This document shows positions 541 to 21,889 of a stretch of 22,904 bases of DNA, piece by piece. Position 1 is the stretch's first letter. Each line of letters opens with the position of its first letter. This stretch comes from a virus. Location: the IMG/VR virus record IMGVR_UViG_3300037010_000133, positions 1 through 22,904 of that record; one strand, written 5' to 3'. The translations under genes were made by a program, and so were the position numbers. The notes below the pieces were generated by a model that saw nothing but the letters and a program-made list of their open reading frames with translations, was not told the origin of the DNA and did no database searches.

Positions 541-567
541 TAAAAACCCTACGATATTCTGTAGGGT
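541..567 (-). terminator. Intrinsic terminator ending the tail-lysis operon
   Basis: On the minus strand ACCCTAC (567-561), loop AGAATATC, GTAGGGT (552-546) and then TTTT at 545-542 form a perfect 7-bp stem with a T run (five T with the last stem base). It lies nine bases after the holin stop. It should end the long tail-lysis transcript. Confidence 0.85.
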
Positions 568-5397: not shown

Positions 5398-8300
5398 TTA
5401 CTCACCAGTTGCTATCCATTGCAAAGAGCCTGTAGCTAATACTTGCGCCGTATTTAAAGAATATCCGTAGTTTTGGAATGTGTCTGAGTTACTTGGTGTA
5501 GTAGAATTCGTTACAACTTGACGAAGGTATATAGTAACAGTTGCAGCACTAAGCTCAACGCCCCAGTAGTTAGTGGTAGTTGTTCCGCCAGTAGCCTTAT
5601 TCATTCTTACGGTTATGTTATTTGCGTAACTACTTGTAGTCAATGTATAGCTTCTACTTATTGGTGTAGATGTGTAATTATTAGTCCCTACTGTTATAGA
5701 TGTATTTGTTGTAGGGTTGGTATTAGCTATAACACTGCCTGTTGCAAGCTCAGTATACGCAAGATACACTACGCCAGAGCTCCCTAAGAATTCAGGCTTA
5801 AGGTAAGGCTCTATTGTATACTGATAATTTACCTGATATACGCTCCAAGTAGCCGCTGGAGTATATGTCGGTAGCGTCATTACTGTGTCTTGATAGAACT
5901 CTAACTGGTACGATGCTTTGTACTGATAATGCGTAGGGGTTCCTGTTACCTTAGATGTAGTAACAGTAGTACTGCCAATAGCATCACCAGATTCTACAAC
6001 TGGGCCAGCTGCTGTTACTGTAGCTGTTGTATAGTTGTACTGCACAGCGCCTGTACTAAATGTACCACCAGCATCTGAAGTAGAAAACTCTAGATAAAAT
6101 TGCCAGGCATTCGCTGATGGAAATGTGAATGATTGACTATCTGTAACAGAGCCTGTAGTAGAGCCTATTACTTTCAATTTCCAAGAACCAGCAACCCAGG
6201 CAGAGCCATTATAATACACAACACGCCAATTTAAATTTCTTAAATAATACTGCCCAGAAGTCCCAGTACCACGAGTTGCGGTAACCGATATATTAGGCGT
6301 TACACTGATAGTGTTAGCAGCAGTCGTATACGTAGAGCTTACCCAACTATCTGCAGTACTATTAGTAATCGCGTTTAATACAGTAGATCCAGTAGCTGCT
6401 GCTAGATTCAAAGTAGCAGTAGGCGTGAATTGATACTGCATAGAGCCTACTGCTGTTTCCGATATAGCATTAGTCGCACAAACGATAGATTGATTCTGGT
6501 TAGCATACGATGTGTTGTAAAGCATCAATGAACTCGGAGCTACCATTACCTTAGGTTGAGAAGCCCAGTAACCTGGGATTATAACAGCTGTACCATTAGT
6601 GCACACACCTGTTTCCACATGAGATAGAGATTTATACACATGGTCTACACCAGCCACTTTTCTAGAAGTTGATACACCTCCAGTGGAGATTATAGTAGTA
6701 TCTACTGCACCTTGAGATCTGAATGTGCCATCACCTGATAAGCTCCACCCTGAAGTACCGCCCGCTGCGTAGTCAGAAGAAGCTATAGAGCCTGATGCAC
6801 CTACTATTACAGCACCGAAAGTTCCCGTAGCTGCGTTTAAAGCACCTGCAAACGTACCCGTAGCTGCATTTAACGCGCCCCCAAATGTTGCGCTCCCATC
6901 AGAGGTTATCGCGAATGTTGTAATAGTATTCTTAACTGCTAATATGCCATTGTTACTTATAGCAACACCATTACCCCCTGCGTAACCACTAGTCTGAAGC
7001 TCTACTGCAGCTGAGAGTACATTAATAGCATCATTGTCAAGCTTCGTTGTCAATTCCGCCATTGCAGCTAAAGCTGTATTTGATGTAGATATTACTGCGC
7101 CCTCTTGCGAGTATGGAGTTGCTGGTCCAACACCAGCTTCTAGCTTAATTTGTCTACAACCTAATCCTGTAGAACCTACTATATTTTCGCATACAAATCT
7201 TACTTTTACAAAAGCTGCGTTAGAAGGTGTAGTTACAGTTATTGTATGTGCTTTACGATTAGACGTATCATCATTAAAGTCATGCGCAGTCGTTAAAGCA
7301 TTTTGGGTACTATCTAATATTAGATTGTATGCGCTATCATAGAGCATCATATCATAATATACACTGCCACTAGTGGCTTGCATTCTAGAGTCACCTGTCA
7401 ATGTGTACGAGGTATTTGACCTTATAGCTAGAAAATCGCTATAAATCACCGATGTGCCATCTTGTGTGGCTGATCTTAAAACTCTCCCGAAGGCTGGTGC
7501 ATCAGTTATTTCGAATGCAGTTGGTGCCGTCCAACCTTGTAGACCCAGCTCAAATCCACCATTAGGTAATAAATTAGGCCTTCCGTAGGCTGCAGCAGAA
7601 GCGGCATCTGCTAATGCTTTAGCATTAGTATAAATCTTATTCAAAAGATTTTGCTTAGCAGTATACACATCTGAGAACTTAGTTCTAAACGTAGTACCAA
7701 CAATAGCAGTATCGTCAGCTGTATTTGACCACAACACAGGTGTTGTTAATGTCGCCATGTAATTAATTAAAGCTGTTACACTATTATCATAATCCGTCTT
7801 TTCAGTTGTTATAGCATACGCAGTAGCTTGAATGTCCAGACCAGCTTGCTCAGCTATGATAGCATTATAATCAGTTATTACAGGAGGTTTCTCGCCTGCT
7901 GTTAGCATATTATCGCTAGCTATATCAGCGAGATCTGCATTTGCTGTGTTAGCAGCAGTTTGAGCAGCGTCTGCAGCACTCTGCGCATTGCTAATCGTTG
8001 TACTATCAATCACCCCTAGAGCACCAACACTTACCCAATCTACAGAAGTGCTAGAGTTCACATTTTGGTTAAAATCAAATCTTAACGCCGTAACGTTTCC
8101 GCCTGTCATGTAATCAGTGCCGCCCGCACTCAATGTACGCATATCTAGATTGATTACAGTCCATGCGCCCAGTGTAGGTGCAGGGATTGCTTTGTAATAT
8201 GAGGCTGACTCCCCGTGTATAGTATTGGAGTGGAATATTAGACCTTCCCAATCTCCAGAGTTCCATAGAACACGCATAGATATCATATAACTCTTCGTGG

Positions 8301-11300
8301 GAGCTAGAGATAGGCTCGTTAATCGTAATGACTGATCTGATGCCAAATTAGTTAGTTTTGTAGCAGTACCACTTTCGGCCGATTCAACTTTTCCTGGGGT
8401 TGTTCCAATCCCGAATGTTGTACCTATAGGTAATGTTCCTTGGAAATCGTAAGATACCAAAGGCTTCAATAATATTCCTGCCGTAGCTTGCGCGGTATCA
8501 GCTAATGTTTTTGCTGAGCTATAAATCTTATTTAAAAGATTCTGTTTAGCAGTATACACATCTGAGAACTTAGTTCTAAACGTAGTCCCTACAATATTAG
8601 TATCACCAGACGTATTTGACCATAGTGTCGGCGCAGTTAGCGTCGCCATATAACTAATTAAAGCTGTTACACTGTTGTCATAAGTTGTCTTTTCGGTTGT
8701 GATTCCATAAGCAGTAGCTTGTGTGTCAATTCCGGATTGCTCTGAAGTTACCGCATTATAGTCAAGTATTACAGGAGATTTCTCTCCTGCAGATAGAACG
8801 TTATCGCTAGATATTGTAGTGATCTGGGAGTTAGCGGCATCAGCAGAAGCTTGTGCGGCTGTAGCAGCATTCTGAGCAGTAGCAGCATTCGTAAGAGCTG
8901 TATTAGCATTTAAAGAAGCTTGAGATATAGTCGTAGCTAAACCACCTTCTAGCAATAGAGTATTTATAGATCCTGCCGCAATCTGAGCAGAAGCTACTTG
9001 ACCTATTACGACAGTCTTCGCTAGCACACCGCCTGTAACAGAATCTTTAGTCTTATATCTCAGCCAAATATGCATAGTAACGCCCAAAGGCATTGAGATA
9101 GAAGTAGCGCTTCCTTGGAATTCTGCAAGCTTAGGTGTAGTACTCGCATTGAAGACTGTTGATGCAGAGCTTCCAAATACCTCTGTAGAGTAATGGCCAT
9201 GCCCTTGCGTGTAGTTCAACAAATCTACAATATTAATAAATACAGTACTATAATCTACTACAGTGCTTATATTAACAGGGATTGGTGGAGGCGTTAGATC
9301 TTGCACGTAACCGACATTCACCGCTGAAACTGTGATGACGACATCTGAATGAGTACCTAAGTAGGTTGCGCGGATTGTTGCACTGCCGAGGTTTCCGAGC
9401 AAGTTGGTAACAGAGTATGCCCCACGAGTAGCTGATGCGCTATTATCTACAGTTAGCGTGCAGTTATTTAGGCTTAATACTGAGTATACTACATCTGTAG
9501 ATAGCGTCAGATTAGCTCCATTCACTACCACTTGCATATTACCTTTAGCATCTGTATAGCCGTAATTCACGTCATCGGCGTCTTGTAAAACACCGATCAC
9601 AGGTTTTGTGGCTATCGTGTAAGTTGTAGGGTCGCTAGTTACAACTGGTGTTGACCATGCTAAATTAGTATCTGTCTGCGCGTTACCAGTGCTCTCAGCG
9701 ATCGTCTGAGATACCCACAATTGTGACAAACCGATAGGTGGTGTTAAGTACCAACCAGCAGGTAAGACTGTCATTGTTTTAGCATAGAAGTCATAAGCCC
9801 CGCCAAGAGGTGTTGACGGCTGTAAATCAGTTCTTGCGTAGATACTGACAGATTGTAAAGTTGTGCCATTTACAGAAGTGCTTGAGAAACCTACAGCTAC
9901 CATTCCCCAACCTGTCCCATCTAGCTGGTTATAAAACGGCGCTTCAATTCCATTCCCTTGCGCTACAACAGCCAGCGTGTATGCCCCACCAATCATCAGA
10001 GGAAGGTCAAAACTTAGGCTAGATGTTGTTCCGATATCTATCCATGTAGTACTTTGTTGTATAGCTATGTAATCATCTAACGTATAGCGAATGCAATAGT
10101 CAGTAGTACGAATATCAGAAGAAGCTGCCCAATCAAGCCTTCCAGATGAACTCGCAGCAGACAACGCAGCAGCTGAGAATATTACACCAGTAGCTTGAGA
10201 TAACGCGTTATCATATATTACACGAGGCTCTACAACTTCATCATCCTTTGCATTCCAAGCTAAGTTACGCGCATCAAAACGTGTTCCTGACAGCTGTATC
10301 ATACCTTTAGAGTCAGGCTTTACAGACTCTAATAGTATCAAATCACCTGGAATATTTAGAACATTAGATTTTACTCTTACGATATCCCCAGGCTCTAACT
10401 CTACGTGTCGCCTATCAACACTTATAGCATAAGTTATTCCATCACGGCTACTTCTAACTAAGTACTCAGCCATAGCTAATGCAGAATAATATGAGGTAGC
10501 GCCTGTGGCAAACTGCTCTGTCTCGAGTGGAAGCCCGCTGTCTTCTGCAACATAAGCAGCATATACAGTGTTGTTGTTATAAACTAGCCAAGCTGGGTCT
10601 AAATTAGGGGCTATAGAATTAACTCGCAATGCGCCTGAAGACAGCTGGTAAACAACTGAAGGGTAGCCTATAGGTGTATATGTAACTTTGTCGCTTGTAT
10701 TATATGCAGTAACGCCTGACCATGTACCACGATCGATCCCTGCTCCAGCTACTACACCCGTTTTTGGAGGCCATGACACACTATCCTCAGCGAAATCTTT
10801 AGATTCGTTTAGGTATTTTACAGTTGCGTAATTAAGGCGAGTTTGAGCATTAGGCCAACTTAAACTTGTCTCACCCTCACGAATAATACTATCATCGTCA
10901 ATATAAGCATCAATTGCATCAGACCAGTTAGCTGATCCTACGGGGCTGTCTAAGTTTCCGTCAATTAAGGATTTATAAAGACCTGTAGAAGTACCTGCTC
11001 CGTCTTGCACCACAACATCCTTAGGGTATACGACACCTTCTGTGTAAACTTCTGGATATGCTAAGTTAAGTTTATATTTACCACCAGACCAGATAAGATC
11101 AGCTTTATTCATTGTTTCTAGGATGGTAGAGATATTCTCGCGAATAGGCTTAGCGGTATCAATAGCTAGGTTGCACTCGTACATTTTGGTTTCACGAATT
11201 CCACCCTTGGCATTCCAGAAGCTGCCCTCTAGTGGGATATTTGTCTGGACAACTCTTTCGCATATCAAGTAAGCATCATAGAATGATTCTAGATCTATGC

Positions 11301-14049: not shown

Positions 14050-17000
14050 TTAACGTTTACCTTGTTCGTAATTATGCATATTAACACCTGTTGCTATCAT
14101 CGGGATCATTTTCTGGATTTCCGTGCGAGTCTGGCTACTTACATCACCAGTTATGTTTATGTTAAATACAGATTGTGAACTCTTTGTAGGATGCCTCTTA
14201 GAGCTTAAATCATGGCTTTTAGGCATATCAATTAGCCCGACAGGTGCAAATCCTCTGAGACCATTAACTATACCGCCAGTTGCAAATTTCTTTACAGAGC
14301 CTTTGTTGATGGAATCTAATAGCCCGAAATGCATCTTAGTAGCCTTGGCATTTACAACAAATTCACCGTTAGATAACATTGCGGGAATACTGTCGGAAGT
14401 TCCTGTGCCCTCGCCTGAAATATATCCGCCAGTTGCAGCATGTACAGCTGGCGCAGGCACTTTAACGGCGCTGGAGTATGCGGAATAAGCTGATACAGCT
14501 AAACCTATCCAGCTCATAGTTGAGTTTCCGCCTGACAGACCTGCTATTGCCATTCCAAGTCCTGCGAAGCCTGCTACAGTATTGAAATTCAAGCCAAGGA
14601 CATTAGAGCTAATTTTGTCAGTGCCTACTACAGTAGCATCCTTTAAACCCGCCCCATCAAAGCCTGTAGTCAAGCTATTCACAGAAGCTGGATCAATACT
14701 CATTGCTGGAGGAGTAGCAGCGTCGAACAGCGAAGAGGATGACGTTTCTATAGTTGCTGTACCATCTTGCTTCAATCCAGTTGGCATAGAATTGCTAGTG
14801 TTACCTACGCCCATACTTTGAATAGCACTTGAAAAGTTCTGAACACTAGTACTAAAGTCACTGACGCCATTAGACCAAACAACATCTGACGCCGACTTAT
14901 TATCTAGCTTATCCGAAGACGGAGCGCCATTAAGCCAATCTGCGGCCTTTCCAAGAATGCCCGTAGGTGCTGGTGCTTTAATATCTCCAGCTACTTTAGG
15001 TACACCTTTTGAGAACCAAGATACAATTGTTTCTCCCATCATTTTACCGAAATCAAATTGCTCAGTGATCTTCGCGCCTATCTTCTTAGTAATGTCAAAA
15101 CCCTTGTCGAGCGCTGTAAAGAATGACGATACGGTGTTGTCAATAATGCCATTGGTGAATGTATTAACCCAAAGGTTTGTAGCTTCTCTTACGCTTGTCT
15201 TACCCTTTGCAAGATCTTGAAAACTTGAAATCATGGTACTACTAGCTGTGTCTTGGAATGCAGTACCAGCTTTAAGAGCTTCTGGAGAATGATCTTTATT
15301 GAGAAGAGCCTCAGCTTCTTCTTTAGCAGCTGCCAATGCTTTTACTTTACTAGCGAGGTCTGATTTCAAGTCACTCTGCAAACCACGTGACCATAGTGAA
15401 AGCAAGGGAGTATTTCTGCTTCTAGCCGCTACCTGCTTAAACTCAGATATCTTTTCAACGATTTCACTCAAATCAGATGTTTTCAAATCTTTGAAATCTT
15501 CAACTAAATTCAAGCCCATTGACTTTAACTCGTTATTTATCAATAATAAAGCTTGAGAAGCTGTAGTAACATTGGCTATTGAAGTCTTAAAAGGAGCGAT
15601 TGCATTTTCGGTATCTGAAGATTGCTTATCTGCAGCTATATTAGTGCTAGTGGCAGATACAGCAGCCCTCGCTGTATTAACTTCATTCTGCGACCAAAGA
15701 CTTGCGCCCTTGTCAGGTAACTTTGCAGAAGATTCTTTTACAGCTTTCCAGGCTTCTATTTGATCTGATAGAGTCTTCAGCTTATTAACATCTATTCCAT
15801 TAAAGTTATCAATTAAATCAAGTCCCATAGCTTTTAACTGTTCGTTTATTGCTACTACTGCATCACTAGTTTTAGTAACTGAATCTATTGTCTCTTTAAA
15901 CGTAGGCGTAGTTATAGGTTTAGGCTTAAGGTCATTTACTGATTTAGCGATCCTGTCGAATACACTTACAGTAACACCTTTCATATTATGCCCAACTTTA
16001 ATTAAATAGTCGCGGAGCTCTGCGTAACTCTTACCTACAAGCTTAGTGACATCTAAAGAGCCACTAGAAAGTATGTTAGAGTTTTCACCATGGTGGTATG
16101 CAGCAATAATTGATTGAGTATCACCGTGAAATTTATCAGTAAGTCTTTTAAGCAACTCTACACCCATGTCTATACTCTTGTAGGGATCCTTACGATCATC
16201 AGGAGAATACCCCATCCCTTTCGCAGTATCTGGCTGGAACTGTGATATACCATAGGCATGAGAGTTAGCAAAATGCAAATGAGCATCTGCAGTAGGAACA
16301 AATCCAGACTCTTGCTGAAATATAGCTAAGGCTAGCGCGGGGTCTACTCCAAGCATTTTGCTCTTGCTGGCAGCATAAGATCTATATTTATCTTTATCAA
16401 TATCAGGTGCAAATGTAGTAGAAGCAATTTTATTTGCGTTAGCCTCACCCGATGTTGGTTTATGATCTAGCACTAACTGCTGGTCTAGAAGGTACCTTAG
16501 CTGCTCTTTGATATTAACAGCAGGCGGTATATGCAGTGTCACGTCGGTCTTAATCATGACGCCTTTAACTATCTCAGGTATCTCCATATAAGGCTTAGAT
16601 GCGCCTGCGCCATTCAGACTCTCGCTTACAGTTGATATTCTATTACGAGCCTCATTTAACGTCTTAGGAGTTTCGTTGAGAGGCGGTGGAGAATACGCTG
16701 GAGCTGCTTGCTTCGGAGCTTCTTTATCTTTATTAGCGAATGGATTCCATTCCTTGAGCTTCGCTATAAAGCCATTAAACCCTGAAATTAGCTCGTCTTT
16801 CCATTTAATCATTAACTCTACAAATCCAATTTTACCTGTAAATAATGCTTTAATATCATCCCACTTCCACCAAACAGCAAGTGCAGCTGATATCGCAGCA
16901 CCTATTATTGCAGCAACGGCTGTAACAGATATGCCTAGCGCAGCTGCAATAGTAGCACCGATACCTACGAAAGCTGAATAGACAGCTCCTGCAGCGGCAG

Positions 17001-19899
17001 TGGCTGCTTCTAGTAAGATAGTTCCATACTTCTTAGTTAGCGCAAGGAATATCGCAGCTAACGAAACTCCTATACCAGAAGCAATTGCTTGACCAGTAAG
17101 CGCGGAAGCTAGAACTACACCGACCTTAGCCCACCCTGGGTAGTCTGTCATACCGCTTGCGATTTCTTGACCTATATTGTAGCCAGCTAAAGTACCGAAT
17201 ACCCCTGCAACACTACCAGTATTTGAAATCACGGCTTCTTTAGCGGCAGCTCTTCTCTCTGATATGATATTTTTAAGATCATCGCTTTGCTTTACAAGTG
17301 AACCTCTTTGTGCTTCTAATGCGCCTGTGTTAGCTTCTAGGGCTTTCTGCTGCTTCTTCAAATTATCAACTACTTCTTTACTAGCAGTTACAGCATTAGC
17401 AGTTGCGTCTAGGCGTGTATTGTTACGATCAGCAGGCCTTGCCGCTATCCAGTCGGTCTTAGCGTCCGCAGCGTCTTTATAAGCTGCAGTGCGATTCTCT
17501 CTTGCAGTCTTCAAAGCAGAGGTCAGATTATCTGATATAGTTTTGTTATTGTAGTCAAATTTACTTATACTACGATCTACAAGGGCTTTGTCAACGTGTG
17601 TCGCAGTGCCGCTAGCTATCCTCGCTGGAGCTGTTAAGAAATTCTTAGCCATACCTGATAGCATGTCACGGCCTGATTGAAACAGTAGCATTATCTTAGC
17701 TATTTGAACTAAAGTTTTCGCGATGCTATCACCAAACATGTTTTTACCGAATATCAAATCTGTTGCCACCTTAAGAGCTTCAAGCACGCTTGTCAAGATG
17801 TTAGTAGTTATGCGGTTCATGGCATTTCCGTCAGACATTCTTCCAACTGCGCCTGTGAAAGCTAAAGATATTGCGTACAATAAAGCTGCACGTACACCTG
17901 TACTAGATACTGCGGCAAATACAGCTGCTACTAACAACCCTGTTACTGCGATTATTGAAGGTAACTGCAAGGCTATTGGAACCTTAGCAGCAAGCGGGCT
18001 AGCATTAGGATTGGGTATAAATTCGCTAGGTGAACGCAAACCTATGTTATTCTTAAAAGAATGAAAGGCCATCTGTATTGTTTCAATACTTTTCCCAATA
18101 AACGTATTAGTATCTTCAAGCGCAGGTGTCGGAGGTTTGACTGTTTTAATGCCCTTAAAAGTGTTATAAATAGCAGCTACGAGACCTGGAATTGCAAATG
18201 CCCATACTTTGCCCCATAATGAGAATGAGCTTAATGTTCCAAAGAATCTTAAGGCTAGTAATCCACCAGCACCTGCCATTAAAACATTTAAAACATTACC
18301 GTTTGTAAAAGCAGAACCAGATTCCTCAGATGGGAGTACTTTATCAATGCCAGATTTATGTACCATTAAGTCAAAGAATGACACTACCTTTGAAAAGCCG
18401 TACTTGATATACTCCAAAAAGTTTACTACAGTATTATTGTGCTTTGACGTCTCCATAGCAAAATCAACAAGTGTTGTATTACGGGCAAAGTCAGCATTTG
18501 ATACACCAAGCCTCGATAGCGCAGAATCTGTAGGTTTTGGTTTACCAGTATCAGAGTATGTGATAGCATTGTTAGCAGGTAGCCTCTCCCATCCGCCGCC
18601 AGACCTTGTAGCTTGAGCAGCTACAGCAGGAATACTTATAGCTTCAGATTTTATAGAATTAAAGAAACCTTTCCACATCTTAGAGACCTTGGAAGCTAAC
18701 GACTCAAACATGTCGGAAGCGCGTTTCACAAAACTCTGTACATAACCTAGCGGGTCTCCCATCAATTTCTTCGTAAAATGCTCAACACCGTCTACGAGGT
18801 CAGGAATCCAAGAGTGCCCAATAACTCTGTCATACAGCCAGAAGAAACCATGTTCAACAGTCTTTATCCAACTCATAACAGTATTCAATGATTTATCCAA
18901 ATCATCAAAAATCATATTAATCGTTACTTTAGGAAACTTAAAGCTAGAGAAGATAGAGCTTACTTTTTGTGCCATCCCACCTGCGAGACCAGCAATTCTA
19001 CTTCCAATATTGTCAGCTATCTCAAGGACATCCGCTGCAAATAAGAAGAATCTAACGCGCATATTCAAAACGATTCCGTTGAAATTAGACGCGACATTAT
19101 TAATGAACAAAGCAAGATTATTAATAGATGAAGCTAGACCACCGCCAATAGATGCTCCACCTACGGCTGAAAATAATGCTAATGCGGATGTTTTCAAGTT
19201 TGTAAATGCGCCGCCGAAAGTTACGGAAACTTTCTTGAATTTCGCATCTAATACATCCGTCTGTGAAAGGATAGCTTTAAAAACTTCTTCCGAAGTTAAT
19301 TTACCAGCTGCCCCTAGTAATCTTAATTGTCCAAATGAGACATGTAAGCCATCGGCAATTGCGCGTGCTAACGCGGGTGAATTCTCTAAGATAGAGCGCA
19401 ACTCATCGCCTTGTAAAATACCAGAACTTAAAGCCTGTCCTAGCTGCATTATAGCTGCCTGGCTTTCGGCTACACCTGCGCCTGAGATAGTCATAGCTTG
19501 TGCTACACTGCGTGTTACTAAAGCTATTTGTGAATTAGTAACGCCAAGGCCAGCTGCTGACAGCGAAAGCTTAGCGTATAGCTCTGAAACTTCTGTTACA
19601 GAAGTGCGTGTAGCTAACGCAATGTTCTTAGAATCAGTCATAGCCTTATTTAAAGCTGTCTGAGAATTGGTTACTAACACTAATTTAGATTGAATATTAC
19701 TCAAAGTATCGGAATACTTTATGAAAGTTGCTACACCGCCAAAGGCAGCCGCTGCAGTTGAAAGACCGAAAAACATCGTCTTAATTGAGGATCCCGCAGT
19801 TGTTGCTGTTAATTGTATAGCTTCAACGGACGCTCGCAGCTTAGCTAGGTCTGCTTGGGCTTGGGCGGAGTTTGATACAACCTTTAGTTCTAAAGACAT
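14050..19899 (-). CDS. Tape measure protein with embedded lytic transglycosylase domain (1949 aa)
   Basis: The N-terminal third is the classical tape measure domain (about residues 60-240), with SRSVAQA-type helices and LSSGILQGDELRSILENSPA. At the far C-terminus (about residues 1840-1885) stands GGYISGEGTGTSDSIPAMLS then NGEFVVNA, the conserved tail of lambda-gpH-type proteins. Hydrophobic membrane-like segments lie near residues 535-575, 640-690 and 920-1015. Residues about 1165-1305 are an SLT-type lytic transglycosylase: IFQQESGF gives the catalytic Glu near 1197, with AYGISQFQ and later IIAAYHHG. The domain may cut peptidoglycan during DNA entry. Two related segments of about 70 residues occur near 1330-1510. 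At about 1.5 angstrom per residue the length implies a tail of up to roughly 290 nm. AAGGGG is five bases before the ATG. Confidence 0.93.
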   Translation of the reverse strand: MSLELKVVSNSAQAQADLAKLRASVEAIQLTATTAGSSIKTMFFGLSTAAAAFGGVATFIKYSDTLSNIQSKLVLVTNSQTALNKAMTDSKNIALATRTSVTEVSELYAKLSLSAAGLGVTNSQIALVTRSVAQAMTISGAGVAESQAAIMQLGQALSSGILQGDELRSILENSPALARAIADGLHVSFGQLRLLGAAGKLTSEEVFKAILSQTDVLDAKFKKVSVTFGGAFTNLKTSALALFSAVGGASIGGGLASSINNLALFINNVASNFNGIVLNMRVRFFLFAADVLEIADNIGSRIAGLAGGMAQKVSSIFSSFKFPKVTINMIFDDLDKSLNTVMSWIKTVEHGFFWLYDRVIGHSWIPDLVDGVEHFTKKLMGDPLGYVQSFVKRASDMFESLASKVSKMWKGFFNSIKSEAISIPAVAAQATRSGGGWERLPANNAITYSDTGKPKPTDSALSRLGVSNADFARNTTLVDFAMETSKHNNTVVNFLEYIKYGFSKVVSFFDLMVHKSGIDKVLPSEESGSAFTNGNVLNVLMAGAGGLLALRFFGTLSSFSLWGKVWAFAIPGLVAAIYNTFKGIKTVKPPTPALEDTNTFIGKSIETIQMAFHSFKNNIGLRSPSEFIPNPNASPLAAKVPIALQLPSIIAVTGLLVAAVFAAVSSTGVRAALLYAISLAFTGAVGRMSDGNAMNRITTNILTSVLEALKVATDLIFGKNMFGDSIAKTLVQIAKIMLLFQSGRDMLSGMAKNFLTAPARIASGTATHVDKALVDRSISKFDYNNKTISDNLTSALKTARENRTAAYKDAADAKTDWIAARPADRNNTRLDATANAVTASKEVVDNLKKQQKALEANTGALEAQRGSLVKQSDDLKNIISERRAAAKEAVISNTGSVAGVFGTLAGYNIGQEIASGMTDYPGWAKVGVVLASALTGQAIASGIGVSLAAIFLALTKKYGTILLEAATAAAGAVYSAFVGIGATIAAALGISVTAVAAIIGAAISAALAVWWKWDDIKALFTGKIGFVELMIKWKDELISGFNGFIAKLKEWNPFANKDKEAPKQAAPAYSPPPLNETPKTLNEARNRISTVSESLNGAGASKPYMEIPEIVKGVMIKTDVTLHIPPAVNIKEQLRYLLDQQLVLDHKPTSGEANANKIASTTFAPDIDKDKYRSYAASKSKMLGVDPALALAIFQQESGFVPTADAHLHFANSHAYGISQFQPDTAKGMGYSPDDRKDPYKSIDMGVELLKRLTDKFHGDTQSIIAAYHHGENSNILSSGSLDVTKLVGKSYAELRDYLIKVGHNMKGVTVSVFDRIAKSVNDLKPKPITTPTFKETIDSVTKTSDAVVAINEQLKAMGLDLIDNFNGIDVNKLKTLSDQIEAWKAVKESSAKLPDKGASLWSQNEVNTARAAVSATSTNIAADKQSSDTENAIAPFKTSIANVTTASQALLLINNELKSMGLNLVEDFKDLKTSDLSEIVEKISEFKQVAARSRNTPLLSLWSRGLQSDLKSDLASKVKALAAAKEEAEALLNKDHSPEALKAGTAFQDTASSTMISSFQDLAKGKTSVREATNLWVNTFTNGIIDNTVSSFFTALDKGFDITKKIGAKITEQFDFGKMMGETIVSWFSKGVPKVAGDIKAPAPTGILGKAADWLNGAPSSDKLDNKSASDVVWSNGVSDFSTSVQNFSSAIQSMGVGNTSNSMPTGLKQDGTATIETSSSSLFDAATPPAMSIDPASVNSLTTGFDGAGLKDATVVGTDKISSNVLGLNFNTVAGFAGLGMAIAGLSGGNSTMSWIGLAVSAYSAYSSAVKVPAPAVHAATGGYISGEGTGTSDSIPAMLSNGEFVVNAKATKMHFGLLDSINKGSVKKFATGGIVNGLRGFAPVGLIDMPKSHDLSSKRHPTKSSQSVFNINITGDVSSQTRTEIQKMIPMIATGVNMHNYEQGKR
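15384..15597 (-). repeat. Tape measure internal repeat, copy 2
   Basis: Encodes LINNELKSMGLNLVEDF and ends in SLWSRGLQ, aligning with copy 1 about 309 bp upstream in the transcript. The copies presumably lengthened the tape measure, and therefore the tail, by duplication. Confidence 0.6.
15690..15909 (-). repeat. Tape measure internal repeat, copy 1
   Basis: Encodes a helical segment with AINEQLKAMGLDL and ending in SLWSQ. It matches copy 2 at about 15384-15597 in the motif order F K-[TS]I--VT, IN-[EQ]LK-MGL, then SLWS. The spacing is about 103 residues. The two copies are clearly related but diverged, as expected for old duplication in a tape measure rod. Confidence 0.6.
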
Positions 19900-19915
19900 A
19901 TATTCCCCTTATGTT

Positions 19916-19944
19916 AAAAACCCAAATGCAATTAGCATCTGGGT
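19916..19944 (-). terminator. Intrinsic terminator between the gp10-like gene and the tape measure
   Basis: On the minus strand ACCCAGATGC (19944-19935), loop TAATT, then GCATTTGGGT (19929-19920) form a 10-bp stem with a single G-U pair, followed by TTTT at 19919-19916 (five T counting the stem's last base). It begins four bases after the upstream stop. Only a ribosome-binding site stands between it and the tape measure ATG, and I see no new promoter, so the tape measure must depend on readthrough or antitermination. Confidence 0.75.
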
Positions 19945-19947
19945 AGT

Positions 19948-20274
19948 TTAATTTACTTTAACGATAGACCCTAAAGGTTTACCGTATTTTAATGCAATAC
20001 GTTCTATGAAATATTTAGGAGCTTGTTTAGAAGATCCCATATTAAGTCTTTGAATGTAAGGCACACTGTTGCGAAGTATTGCTACTTTCTTTCCATCATT
20101 TTGTGTATGAATTTCTTCAGTCCACGAAGCTTTTGCAAGCCCTGTGTCTACAGGTGTAGCTTCTTCTAACTCTCGTAGCATTGAGCTAGACTTTGTTACT
20201 AAGTTTGTATTTACAGTTAGCTCTAATTTAGCTTCAGCGTCTTTGAAGAAGCTGTCAATATTAGTAAAACTCAT
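19948..20274 (-). CDS. HK97 gp10-like neck/tail-completion protein (108 aa)
   Basis: The middle carries TPVDTGLAKASW, later VPYIQRLNMGSSKQAPKYFI. These are the two hallmarks of the HK97-gp10_like family as I remember it: a T-P-VDTG--R/K-SW motif, then Y---N-G-S-QAP--F. Members are about 100-150 residues and normally lie in the neck cluster between head closure and tail terminator. Here the gene lies after the chaperones and before the tape measure, and no gp10-like gene is visible in the usual slot. No clear ribosome-binding sequence precedes the ATG; the closest GGAG is about 19 bases away, beside the upstream stop. It is followed at once by an intrinsic terminator. Confidence 0.7.
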   Translation of the reverse strand: MSFTNIDSFFKDAEAKLELTVNTNLVTKSSSMLRELEEATPVDTGLAKASWTEEIHTQNDGKKVAILRNSVPYIQRLNMGSSKQAPKYFIERIALKYGKPLGSIVKVN

Positions 20275-20287
20275 TTTAGTAGTTATA

Positions 20288-20623
20288 TCAAGCTCCTAAG
20301 AAATCAGGCTTATCACCTTTAGAGGTAAGCATCATACTAAACATCGCTGAGGCTTTTAGCGTACTTGCCACATCAGCTTCATCTTTTCCATGTTTCATCA
20401 TTGCAGCTAAGCTCGGAAATAGCTCGTTAGCTTTAGCGGAGACTCCCGCCGCAGATAACTGCATTGATACGCGGTGATCTTCACGCCAGCCGAAAGGTCT
20501 TACCTTAAAGTACTCGAACCATCCTACGAACTCGTCATAAGGCATTTCTTCTAAAAGCTTATAAACGGGCATTCGGAGATGATGCGCTAACTCAAAGATT
20601 TCTAACTCTTCCGGGCTTAACAT
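20288..20623 (-). CDS. Tail assembly chaperone, second component (gpT / DUF4035-like, 111 aa)
   Basis: The N-terminus reads FELAHHLRMPVYKLLEEMPY followed by DEFVGWFEYF. This is the pattern known from DUF4035-type second chaperone components: AHHL-M, then LLE-P--E, then an aromatic W--Y. In lambda the equivalent domain is made only as a GT frameshift fusion, and it bridges tube subunits and tape measure. Here the gene has its own ATG, overlapping the upstream stop as TAATG. In this reading frame a TAA sits at 20627-20629, just two codons before the ATG, so a fusion protein could form only by slipping at the last codons. The final codons, AGT AAA TAA, do not form an X XXY YYZ slippery site. No strong ribosome-binding sequence is visible, so reinitiation after the upstream stop is the likely mode. 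Confidence 0.75.
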   Translation of the reverse strand: MLSPEELEIFELAHHLRMPVYKLLEEMPYDEFVGWFEYFKVRPFGWREDHRVSMQLSAAGVSAKANELFPSLAAMMKHGKDEADVASTLKASAMFSMMLTSKGDKPDFLGA

Positions 20624-21206: not shown

Positions 21207-21298
21207 TAGTTTCCTTTATCAGGGACACCCATCCTTTGTGGCCGTGGGTTGTTTAAGAGTAGGGCAGCCGCACCCACGTACTCCCCTCAAATTACATA
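21207..21298 (-). promoter_or_regulatory. Structured intergenic RNA after the tail tube gene
   Basis: This 92-bp gap holds no gene but several inverted repeats. On the transcript, CGTGGGT near 21279 can pair with ACCCACG near 21244 (7 bp). Alternatively GAGTA and GGG pair with CCC and TACTC (21256-21263) around a 3-base bulge; the two pairings share bases and exclude each other. No run of T follows, so it is not a simple intrinsic terminator. A 3'-end stabiliser or processing site between an abundant structural mRNA and the low-abundance chaperones would fit. The gap also holds GGCTGCCCT and GTCCCTGATAA, both of which recur in the 5183-5397 gap. Confidence 0.45.
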
Positions 21299-21889
21299 TT
21301 AGATGGTGTAAGCACCGTAGAACGCTGATTGCAGAGTGATAGTGACAGTAGCAGTGTTAGAGTCCGTCAGTTGCGGTGTTACTAACAAAGCTTCGACCTT
21401 ACCAACCCAGTAGTATTGGCTGTTCTGAACAGAACCCAGACCAGTTGCAGTAGATGCATACTGAGTCGCATCAACGCCTGTAGGCTGTGAGTTAAGTAAA
21501 GTAAAGCGAAATACATACTGGTTACCATCACTCACCATATTGCCAAGGATGTTACCTACATCTTTAGCCCAGTCAGATGCGACAAAGTTCAACGTGATTT
21601 CCATATTAGGAGCATCAGATTGGCCTTGAATCTGTTGAGAGGTCTTCTGACCATATGTAGGTACTTTGACAACGTTAGGTGGTGTACCCATCGCAGGGAA
21701 TGTACGAACGTTCTTAATGCGTGTGAATGTACCAATACCCTTTGTACCACCTACAGAGTTAATTTCAGTTGTGTACAACGCTTGAAACTCAGCCGCAGTG
21801 TCAAGTGTAGCAAAGTTAGGCGCTACTGAAGGTACTGCAACTGCTAGATCGGAAAAGAGACCAGCGCCGATTGATGTAATATGTGCCAT
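21299..21889 (-). CDS. Major tail tube protein (196 aa)
   Basis: A 196-residue, beta-rich protein with few charged residues. Its size and place (after the terminator, before the assembly chaperones) are those of the siphophage tube subunit, which stacks in hexameric rings around the tape measure. The body shows alternating strands such as DAPNMEITLNFVASDW and NQYVFRFTLLN, and ends in a strand pair (YYWVGKVEALLV, TATVTITLQSAFYGAY). Strand-plus-loop organisation of this kind is typical of tube domains with the gpV-like fold. The nearest ribosome-binding sequence is a GGAG eleven bases before the ATG, rather distant for what should be an abundant product. A structured 92-bp gap follows the stop codon, the kind of element that could set the ratio of tube to chaperone. 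Confidence 0.8.
   Translation of the reverse strand: MAHITSIGAGLFSDLAVAVPSVAPNFATLDTAAEFQALYTTEINSVGGTKGIGTFTRIKNVRTFPAMGTPPNVVKVPTYGQKTSQQIQGQSDAPNMEITLNFVASDWAKDVGNILGNMVSDGNQYVFRFTLLNSQPTGVDATQYASTATGLGSVQNSQYYWVGKVEALLVTPQLTDSNTATVTITLQSAFYGAYTI

Follow-up and report, generated by a model that had tools for sequence, protein, structure and literature searches.

The ratio of tube subunits to tape measure protein is poorly explained at the level of gene expression in long-tailed phages. Partial termination has been measured at T-phi of T7 (after gene 10) and in phiX174, at sites that follow the major coat gene, and a partial terminator placed within a structural operon would cut the supply of low-copy proteins encoded downstream. 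The hairpin described here is similar in this respect, whereas it lies before the tape measure gene rather than after a coat gene, and termination, measured in T7 and phiX174, is at this site something that we infer. In lambda-like late operons, antitermination carries the polymerase through terminators. The late genes of SPP1 likewise form clusters bounded by stem-loop terminators, one of which closes the tail tube gene (PMC6316719); there, however, the tape measure gene begins about 12 nt after the chaperone gene, which leaves no room for a hairpin. The demand for unequal expression is illustrated by the JBD30 virion, which contains 270 major tail proteins per tape-measure trimer (PMC11445458).

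Terminators before the tape measure gene are of a known kind, since this slot is already annotated in HK97. The HK97 record (GenBank AF069529) carries "terminator, putative" features at 6692-6719, 7443-7462, and 8398-8422; putative terminators flank the major tail gene on both sides, and another lies directly before gene H, which encodes the tape measure protein. Comparison of twelve tape-measure loci from other cultured phages revealed a canonical terminator 18-27 nt before the tape measure ATG in four (HK97, Bordetella PHB09, Pseudomonas U7, and Acinetobacter B1251), and no canonical terminator before that gene in eight (RcSpartan, S0112, PAE1, 13KS502A, Kakheti25, Pan1, 9NA, and RHph_I4). 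PAE1, RcSpartan, Kakheti25, and others have the same gene order as the DNA studied here, yet the hairpin is absent or weak. The hairpin analysed below resembles that of HK97: both are of the intrinsic-terminator type with a U run, both belong to the late tail operon, and in both some 20 nt remain between hairpin and tape measure ATG. The HK97 terminator differs in its longer U run and in its place behind a moron gene (15), whereas ours follows a conserved neck gene, with the stem beginning 3 nt past its stop codon. It may thus join the known HK97-type internal terminators. The features that may deserve a specialist's notice are its recurrence, its spacing from the stop codon, and the GAUGG arm found in one clade; the last two (a stop-to-stem distance of about 5 nt and the fixed arm) are new to the argument. 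The literature searched contained no statement that such terminators recur at this position across unrelated tail operons, which is not proof that none has been made.

All tail genes of the window (the whole 22,904-nt stretch analysed) are on the minus strand, with gene starts taken from predictions. The major tail protein gene (21299-21889; phrog_158), from which the tail-operon comparison starts, is followed by a gene for a tail assembly chaperone-like protein related to lambda T (20288-20623; PF06223), and by a gene for a 108-residue neck/tail-completion protein of the HK97 gp10 type (19948-20274; phrog_169, E = 2e-12), which ends with a TAA stop codon at 19948-19950. The tape measure gene (14050-19899) encodes 1949 residues, and matches PF20155 (TMP_3; E = 2e-52) and the SLT domain PF01464; the latter, a lytic transglycosylase domain, occupies residues 1175-1274. 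Both neighbours named in the earlier note, a gp10-like gene upstream and the tape measure gene downstream, were therefore identified correctly.

The gap between these two genes (19947-19900, minus strand) consists of 48 nt, ACTACCCAGATGCTAATTGCATTTGGGTTTTTAACATAAGGGGAATAT, and reads on the coding strand ACT-ACCCAGATGC-TAATT-GCATTTGGGT-TTTTAACATAAGGGGAATAT, followed by the tape-measure ATG (19899-19897). The arms ACCCAGATGC and GCATTTGGGT form the stem (19944-19920), and the U run (19920-19916) includes the last stem base among its five U residues; the hairpin and its TTTTA tail together correspond to plus-strand positions 19916-19944. The reported stem of 10 bp with one G-U pair, its 5-base loop, and the T run were all recovered as described. 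The stem-loop has the stability and G+C-richness expected of an intrinsic terminator (-15.3 kcal/mol by RNAfold), and the U run, UUUUUAAC, directly follows the stem, although it is only moderate in length. A simple terminator scan missed the hairpin, because only four T residues follow the last counted pair. On the opposite strand the fold is weaker (-10.9 kcal/mol), because the G-U pair becomes an A-C mismatch, and there is no U run. The better fold and the U run are thus confined to the minus strand, indicating that the element is built for the transcript entering the tape measure gene.

Scoring with RNAfold and a home-made TransTermHP-style scorer confirmed that the hairpin is real, and far beyond chance. 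Its 71-nt context folds with z = -3.5 (0 of 200 shuffles), its score was not reached when the gap context was shuffled 20,000 times with dinucleotides kept, and no match in 40 shuffles of both whole strands attained it. Across both strands of the window, the hairpin ranks first. The next good site, at 547-566 (minus strand), follows the gene for a GTA-type holin (576-1064; PF11351), 9 nt past its stop codon. Searches of the tape-measure gaps of the window and its relatives against Rfam gave no family above the curated score.

The stem ends 20 nt before the tape-measure ATG, and this interval is filled by the U run and, directly behind it, the Shine-Dalgarno sequence AAGGGGA (AAGGGGAA, 19903-19910). 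A promoter would not fit behind the hairpin for this reason, in agreement with the earlier note, which had seen none. Within a single operon, the hairpin separates structural genes whose products are needed in many copies from those needed in few, with no promoter behind it. Because the downstream genes are needed, the element must be leaky, read through, or antiterminated. The explanation that we consider probable is a leaky intrinsic (Rho-independent) terminator in the late tail operon that lowers transcription of the tape measure gene. A terminator at this point, after the last gene of the neck/chaperone type and ahead of the tape measure gene, would stop part of the RNA polymerases, so that the tape measure gene and the genes behind it would be transcribed less than those for the major tail protein and the chaperones. 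A ribosome finishing the upstream gene would cover the 5′ arm and let the polymerase pass, making the step-down partial and dependent on translation. Such lowering would suit a virion with few tape-measure copies per hundreds of tube subunits. The earlier proposal of an intrinsic terminator that lowers tape-measure transcription agrees with the terminator-like appearance of the hairpin, with its conservation as an altered stem, and with the JBD30 ratio. From what was read directly (the hairpin, its U run, the strand asymmetry, the conserved position with changed sequence, and the short distance from stop codon to stem), we infer termination and its efficiency, an effect of the ribosome in this host, and a purpose in dosage. 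The reading as a terminator has good support, and the dosage idea is plausible and strengthened by the comparison of relatives.

Homologous loci were retrieved through the upstream neck protein and not through the hairpin, which yielded an unselected set of 43 distinct gaps in viral contigs; these loci are phylogenetically related. The window derives from an uncultivated virus; one contig was identical to it (L002/L011), and relatives at the DNA level were not found in the phage collection. Plasmids searched with the 3′ portion of the tape measure gene gave no match, and a search of genome contigs for a host returned only three MAG contigs and no firm host. A hairpin of -8 kcal/mol or lower was present in 40 of the 43 gaps, and a U-rich tail (at least four U in the next eight positions) followed it in 36 of those 40. 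In the relatives, the stem starts a median of 5 nt past the upstream stop codon (middle half, 4-8 nt), and about 20 nt separate its end from the ATG. Scanned under strict settings, 266 kb of these loci returned 57 forward matches, compared with 19 from shuffles; 28 of the 57 fell in the tape-measure gap, which makes up 1.1% of the bases. Stem sequences are unrelated among the clades represented by the window, L013, L014, L016, L017, L027, L205, and L307, as illustrated by ACCCAGATGC in the window, TACCCAGGGTCC in L014, AGCCCTCTA in L017, ATACCCAAGGAT in L016, TCCCCGCATAT in L027, and GCCCCACACAGCGTGGGGC in L307. Unrelated stems at one spot indicate that position and structure, rather than sequence, have been kept.

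The major tail protein closest to that of the window in the phage collection belongs to EBPR siphovirus 1 (57.6% identity). In this phage the hairpin occupies a 29-nt gap, and the upstream stop codon lies in its loop (ACCCGC-TGAAAG-GCGGGT-TTTT); the predicted upstream stop of L012, read by eye, is likewise within the stem-loop. The hairpin is absent or weak in L004, Kolga, L308, and L309, and in L003 a similar hairpin precedes the neck gene instead of the tape measure gene. Comparison of the same gap in related phages, which the earlier note had suggested as a check, thus revealed a hairpin in 40 of 43 gaps, with stem sequences that change between clades, and the element withstands that check; it is missing in several phages of the same gene order, and is therefore useful or strongly favoured, but not obligatory. 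That many distantly related phages have a terminator at this point, formed by unrelated stems, suggests a simple transcriptional step-down, an idea that becomes testable in cultured phages such as HK97 and DSS3_VP1 (hairpin at 30,709-30,746 of the latter's record).

Loci retrieved with HK97 and PHB09 as queries, a set made up largely of closely related enterobacterial prophages, gave 39 distinct upstream stretches, of which 37 carried a terminator; the stems were of many kinds. In these HK97-like loci the terminator mostly follows a moron gene, and morons that bring their own terminators would account for most occurrences at this slot, which speaks against the explanation favoured above. By extension, the window hairpin could be the remnant of a once-inserted moron gene, with no present role. 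This appears highly improbable: at the window site there is no moron, that is, no small inserted gene with its own promoter, the upstream gene being a conserved neck/tail-completion gene, and hairpins of unrelated sequence are kept at the same place in most relatives. In L286, where no moron intervenes and only 46 nt lie between chaperone T and the tape measure gene, the terminator is still present.

Many HK97-like relatives have very strong terminators at the slot, with 7-8 U. They lend some support to the view that the element is a full terminator of the upstream unit, which phage-encoded antitermination would override at the late stage, as is established for lambda-like late operons; it would block only stray early or lysogen transcription, and would have no effect on dosage late. 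We regard this as unlikely for the window, whose hairpin is only of moderate strength, and among whose family relatives the presence of the hairpin varies.

A leaky terminator agrees with the position of the stem relative to the upstream stop codon. Only 3 nt (19945-19947) separate the two in the window, and the median of 5 nt in the relatives is also within the roughly 10 nt over which a terminating ribosome is expected to occlude a terminator. In constructs with tR2, moving the stop codon from 28 to 5 bp upstream lowered termination from about 90% to less than 10%, and the effect was abolished when translation was uncoupled (PMC4824070). The window hairpin resembles these constructs and the pyrBI attenuator in that its stem lies a few nucleotides past a stop codon, and would be predicted to be occluded by the terminating ribosome; the settings differ, as those systems are synthetic or belong to a biosynthetic operon, and not to this phage or host. 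With the stem in the ribosome footprint, termination should be leaky and dependent on translation, and in a host that couples the two processes, transcription should stop at the hairpin only if the polymerase has no ribosome close behind it. A partial, translation-dependent step-down would therefore be the most economical mechanism. If ribosomes of the host occluded the hairpin completely, it might cause almost no termination.

A comparison is offered by the hairpins that follow the major tail gene in these phages. They begin 11 nt from the stop codon, versus 5 nt before the tape measure gene (p = 6e-9, unselected loci), and the median number of U residues in the next eight positions is 3.5, versus 6 before the tape measure gene (p = 4e-9, unselected loci); both p values are too small, because the sequences share ancestry and do not count as independent. 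The gap behind the major tail protein gene in about 90 related loci (e.g. L024, L046, and L203) contains strong hairpins (-15 to -20 kcal/mol), many of which lack a U run; they lie a median of 11 nt past the stop codon, and are perhaps mRNA stabilisers and not terminators. Hairpins of this stabiliser-like type, together with stems before the tape measure gene that reach -20 to -30 kcal/mol in one clade, give some support to the view that the window element concerns mRNA stability or processing, either shielding the upstream tail mRNA at its 3′ end or being cut by RNase III, with decay setting the dosage. A stabiliser does not need the U run that is kept before the tape measure gene, and we consider this view quite unlikely.

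A role in translation of the tape measure gene, in which the structure would hide or present the ribosome-binding site and couple it to upstream translation, is improbable. In nearly all relatives some 20 nt lie between stem and ATG, which places the end of the stem at the border of the initiation region, and in some of them the minimum free energy (MFE) fold pairs the Shine-Dalgarno sequence with the end of the upstream gene. In the window, however, the ribosome-binding site lies outside the hairpin, and Shine-Dalgarno accessibility (0.42) did not differ significantly from that obtained with a shuffled upstream part (0.47; p = 0.06).

The largest related clade accounts for 35 of the 43 unselected gaps, and its 5′ arm contains GATGG without exception. 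The bases opposite the five letters, counted in 37 sequences, were T29/C8; T37; G20/A16 (one unpaired); T19/C18; and C24/T11 (two unpaired). Pairs were counted per folded hairpin, since the 3′ arm was not aligned correctly by MAFFT on its own. All partner changes preserve G-C/G-U or U-A/U-G pairing, the pairs adjoining GATGG show true two-sided changes, and the same partner pattern was seen in 81 sequences, part of them chosen by a GATGG-containing pattern. Changes limited to those that G-U pairing tolerates argue for pairing at the RNA level in the direction of the tape measure gene, and for the letters of the 5′ arm being held by something else; the pattern looks as if something reads the GAUGG arm. 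The window is not a member of this group, in which the element combines the GAUGG arm with a second inner stem: the window arm carries GAUGC and forms a single short stem, and model R1 gives no match.

The GAUGG element was also found in the roseophages DSS3_VP1 and DSS3_PM1, and in phages with a 2042-residue tape measure protein that gave no tblastn match and was identified by profile. DSS3_VP1 is established as a dU-DNA phage (PMC12697855), and DSS3_PM1 is assumed to be one from its kinship with DSS3_VP1. When 13 records were searched whole, clear matches to the element occurred at one place each, at the tape-measure gap; weak matches were also returned, and many of these were that very site read from the other strand. 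One strong match per genome indicates that the element is not a general terminator of these phages. A regulated attenuator, with the stem in the footprint of the upstream ribosome, the GAUGG of the large clade read by a phage or host factor, and several siphophage lineages having arrived at it independently, is a tentative alternative that we would not call likely; it would tie tape-measure synthesis to translation of the neck/chaperone genes. The invariant clade would, in that case, add a specific regulator to seek. A leader peptide starting from the AUG in GAUGG was considered and rejected, as all three frames occur with respect to the tape measure gene (32/28/21) and the open reading frames range from 3 to 41 codons. 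The inner loops of GATGG hairpins are often RANATAC-like (GATATAC, GAAATAC, or GACATAC; e.g. L056, L069, and L131), and ATA or TAT is present in 65 of 81 loops, a possible second sequence constraint.

Two further structures were observed near the tail genes. In DSS3_VP1 (L203, 11229-11260), L052, and L062, another terminator (GGTCATCCCTTCGGGGGTGGCC plus a T run) lies directly behind the tape measure gene, which is therefore bracketed by terminators in these phages. In the window, the gap behind the major tail gene (21207-21298, minus strand) contains an unusual RNA-like stretch with the motif CTACTCTYAAACAAC. It gave no Rfam match, and RNAfold yielded no stable MFE structure for the copy in the window. 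The stretch is common to the L018/L021 group although the remaining DNA has diverged, and a three-helix layout is possible, with GGGGA..TCCC outside, and CCCA/TGGG in the window versus CCGTC/GACGG in L018/L021.
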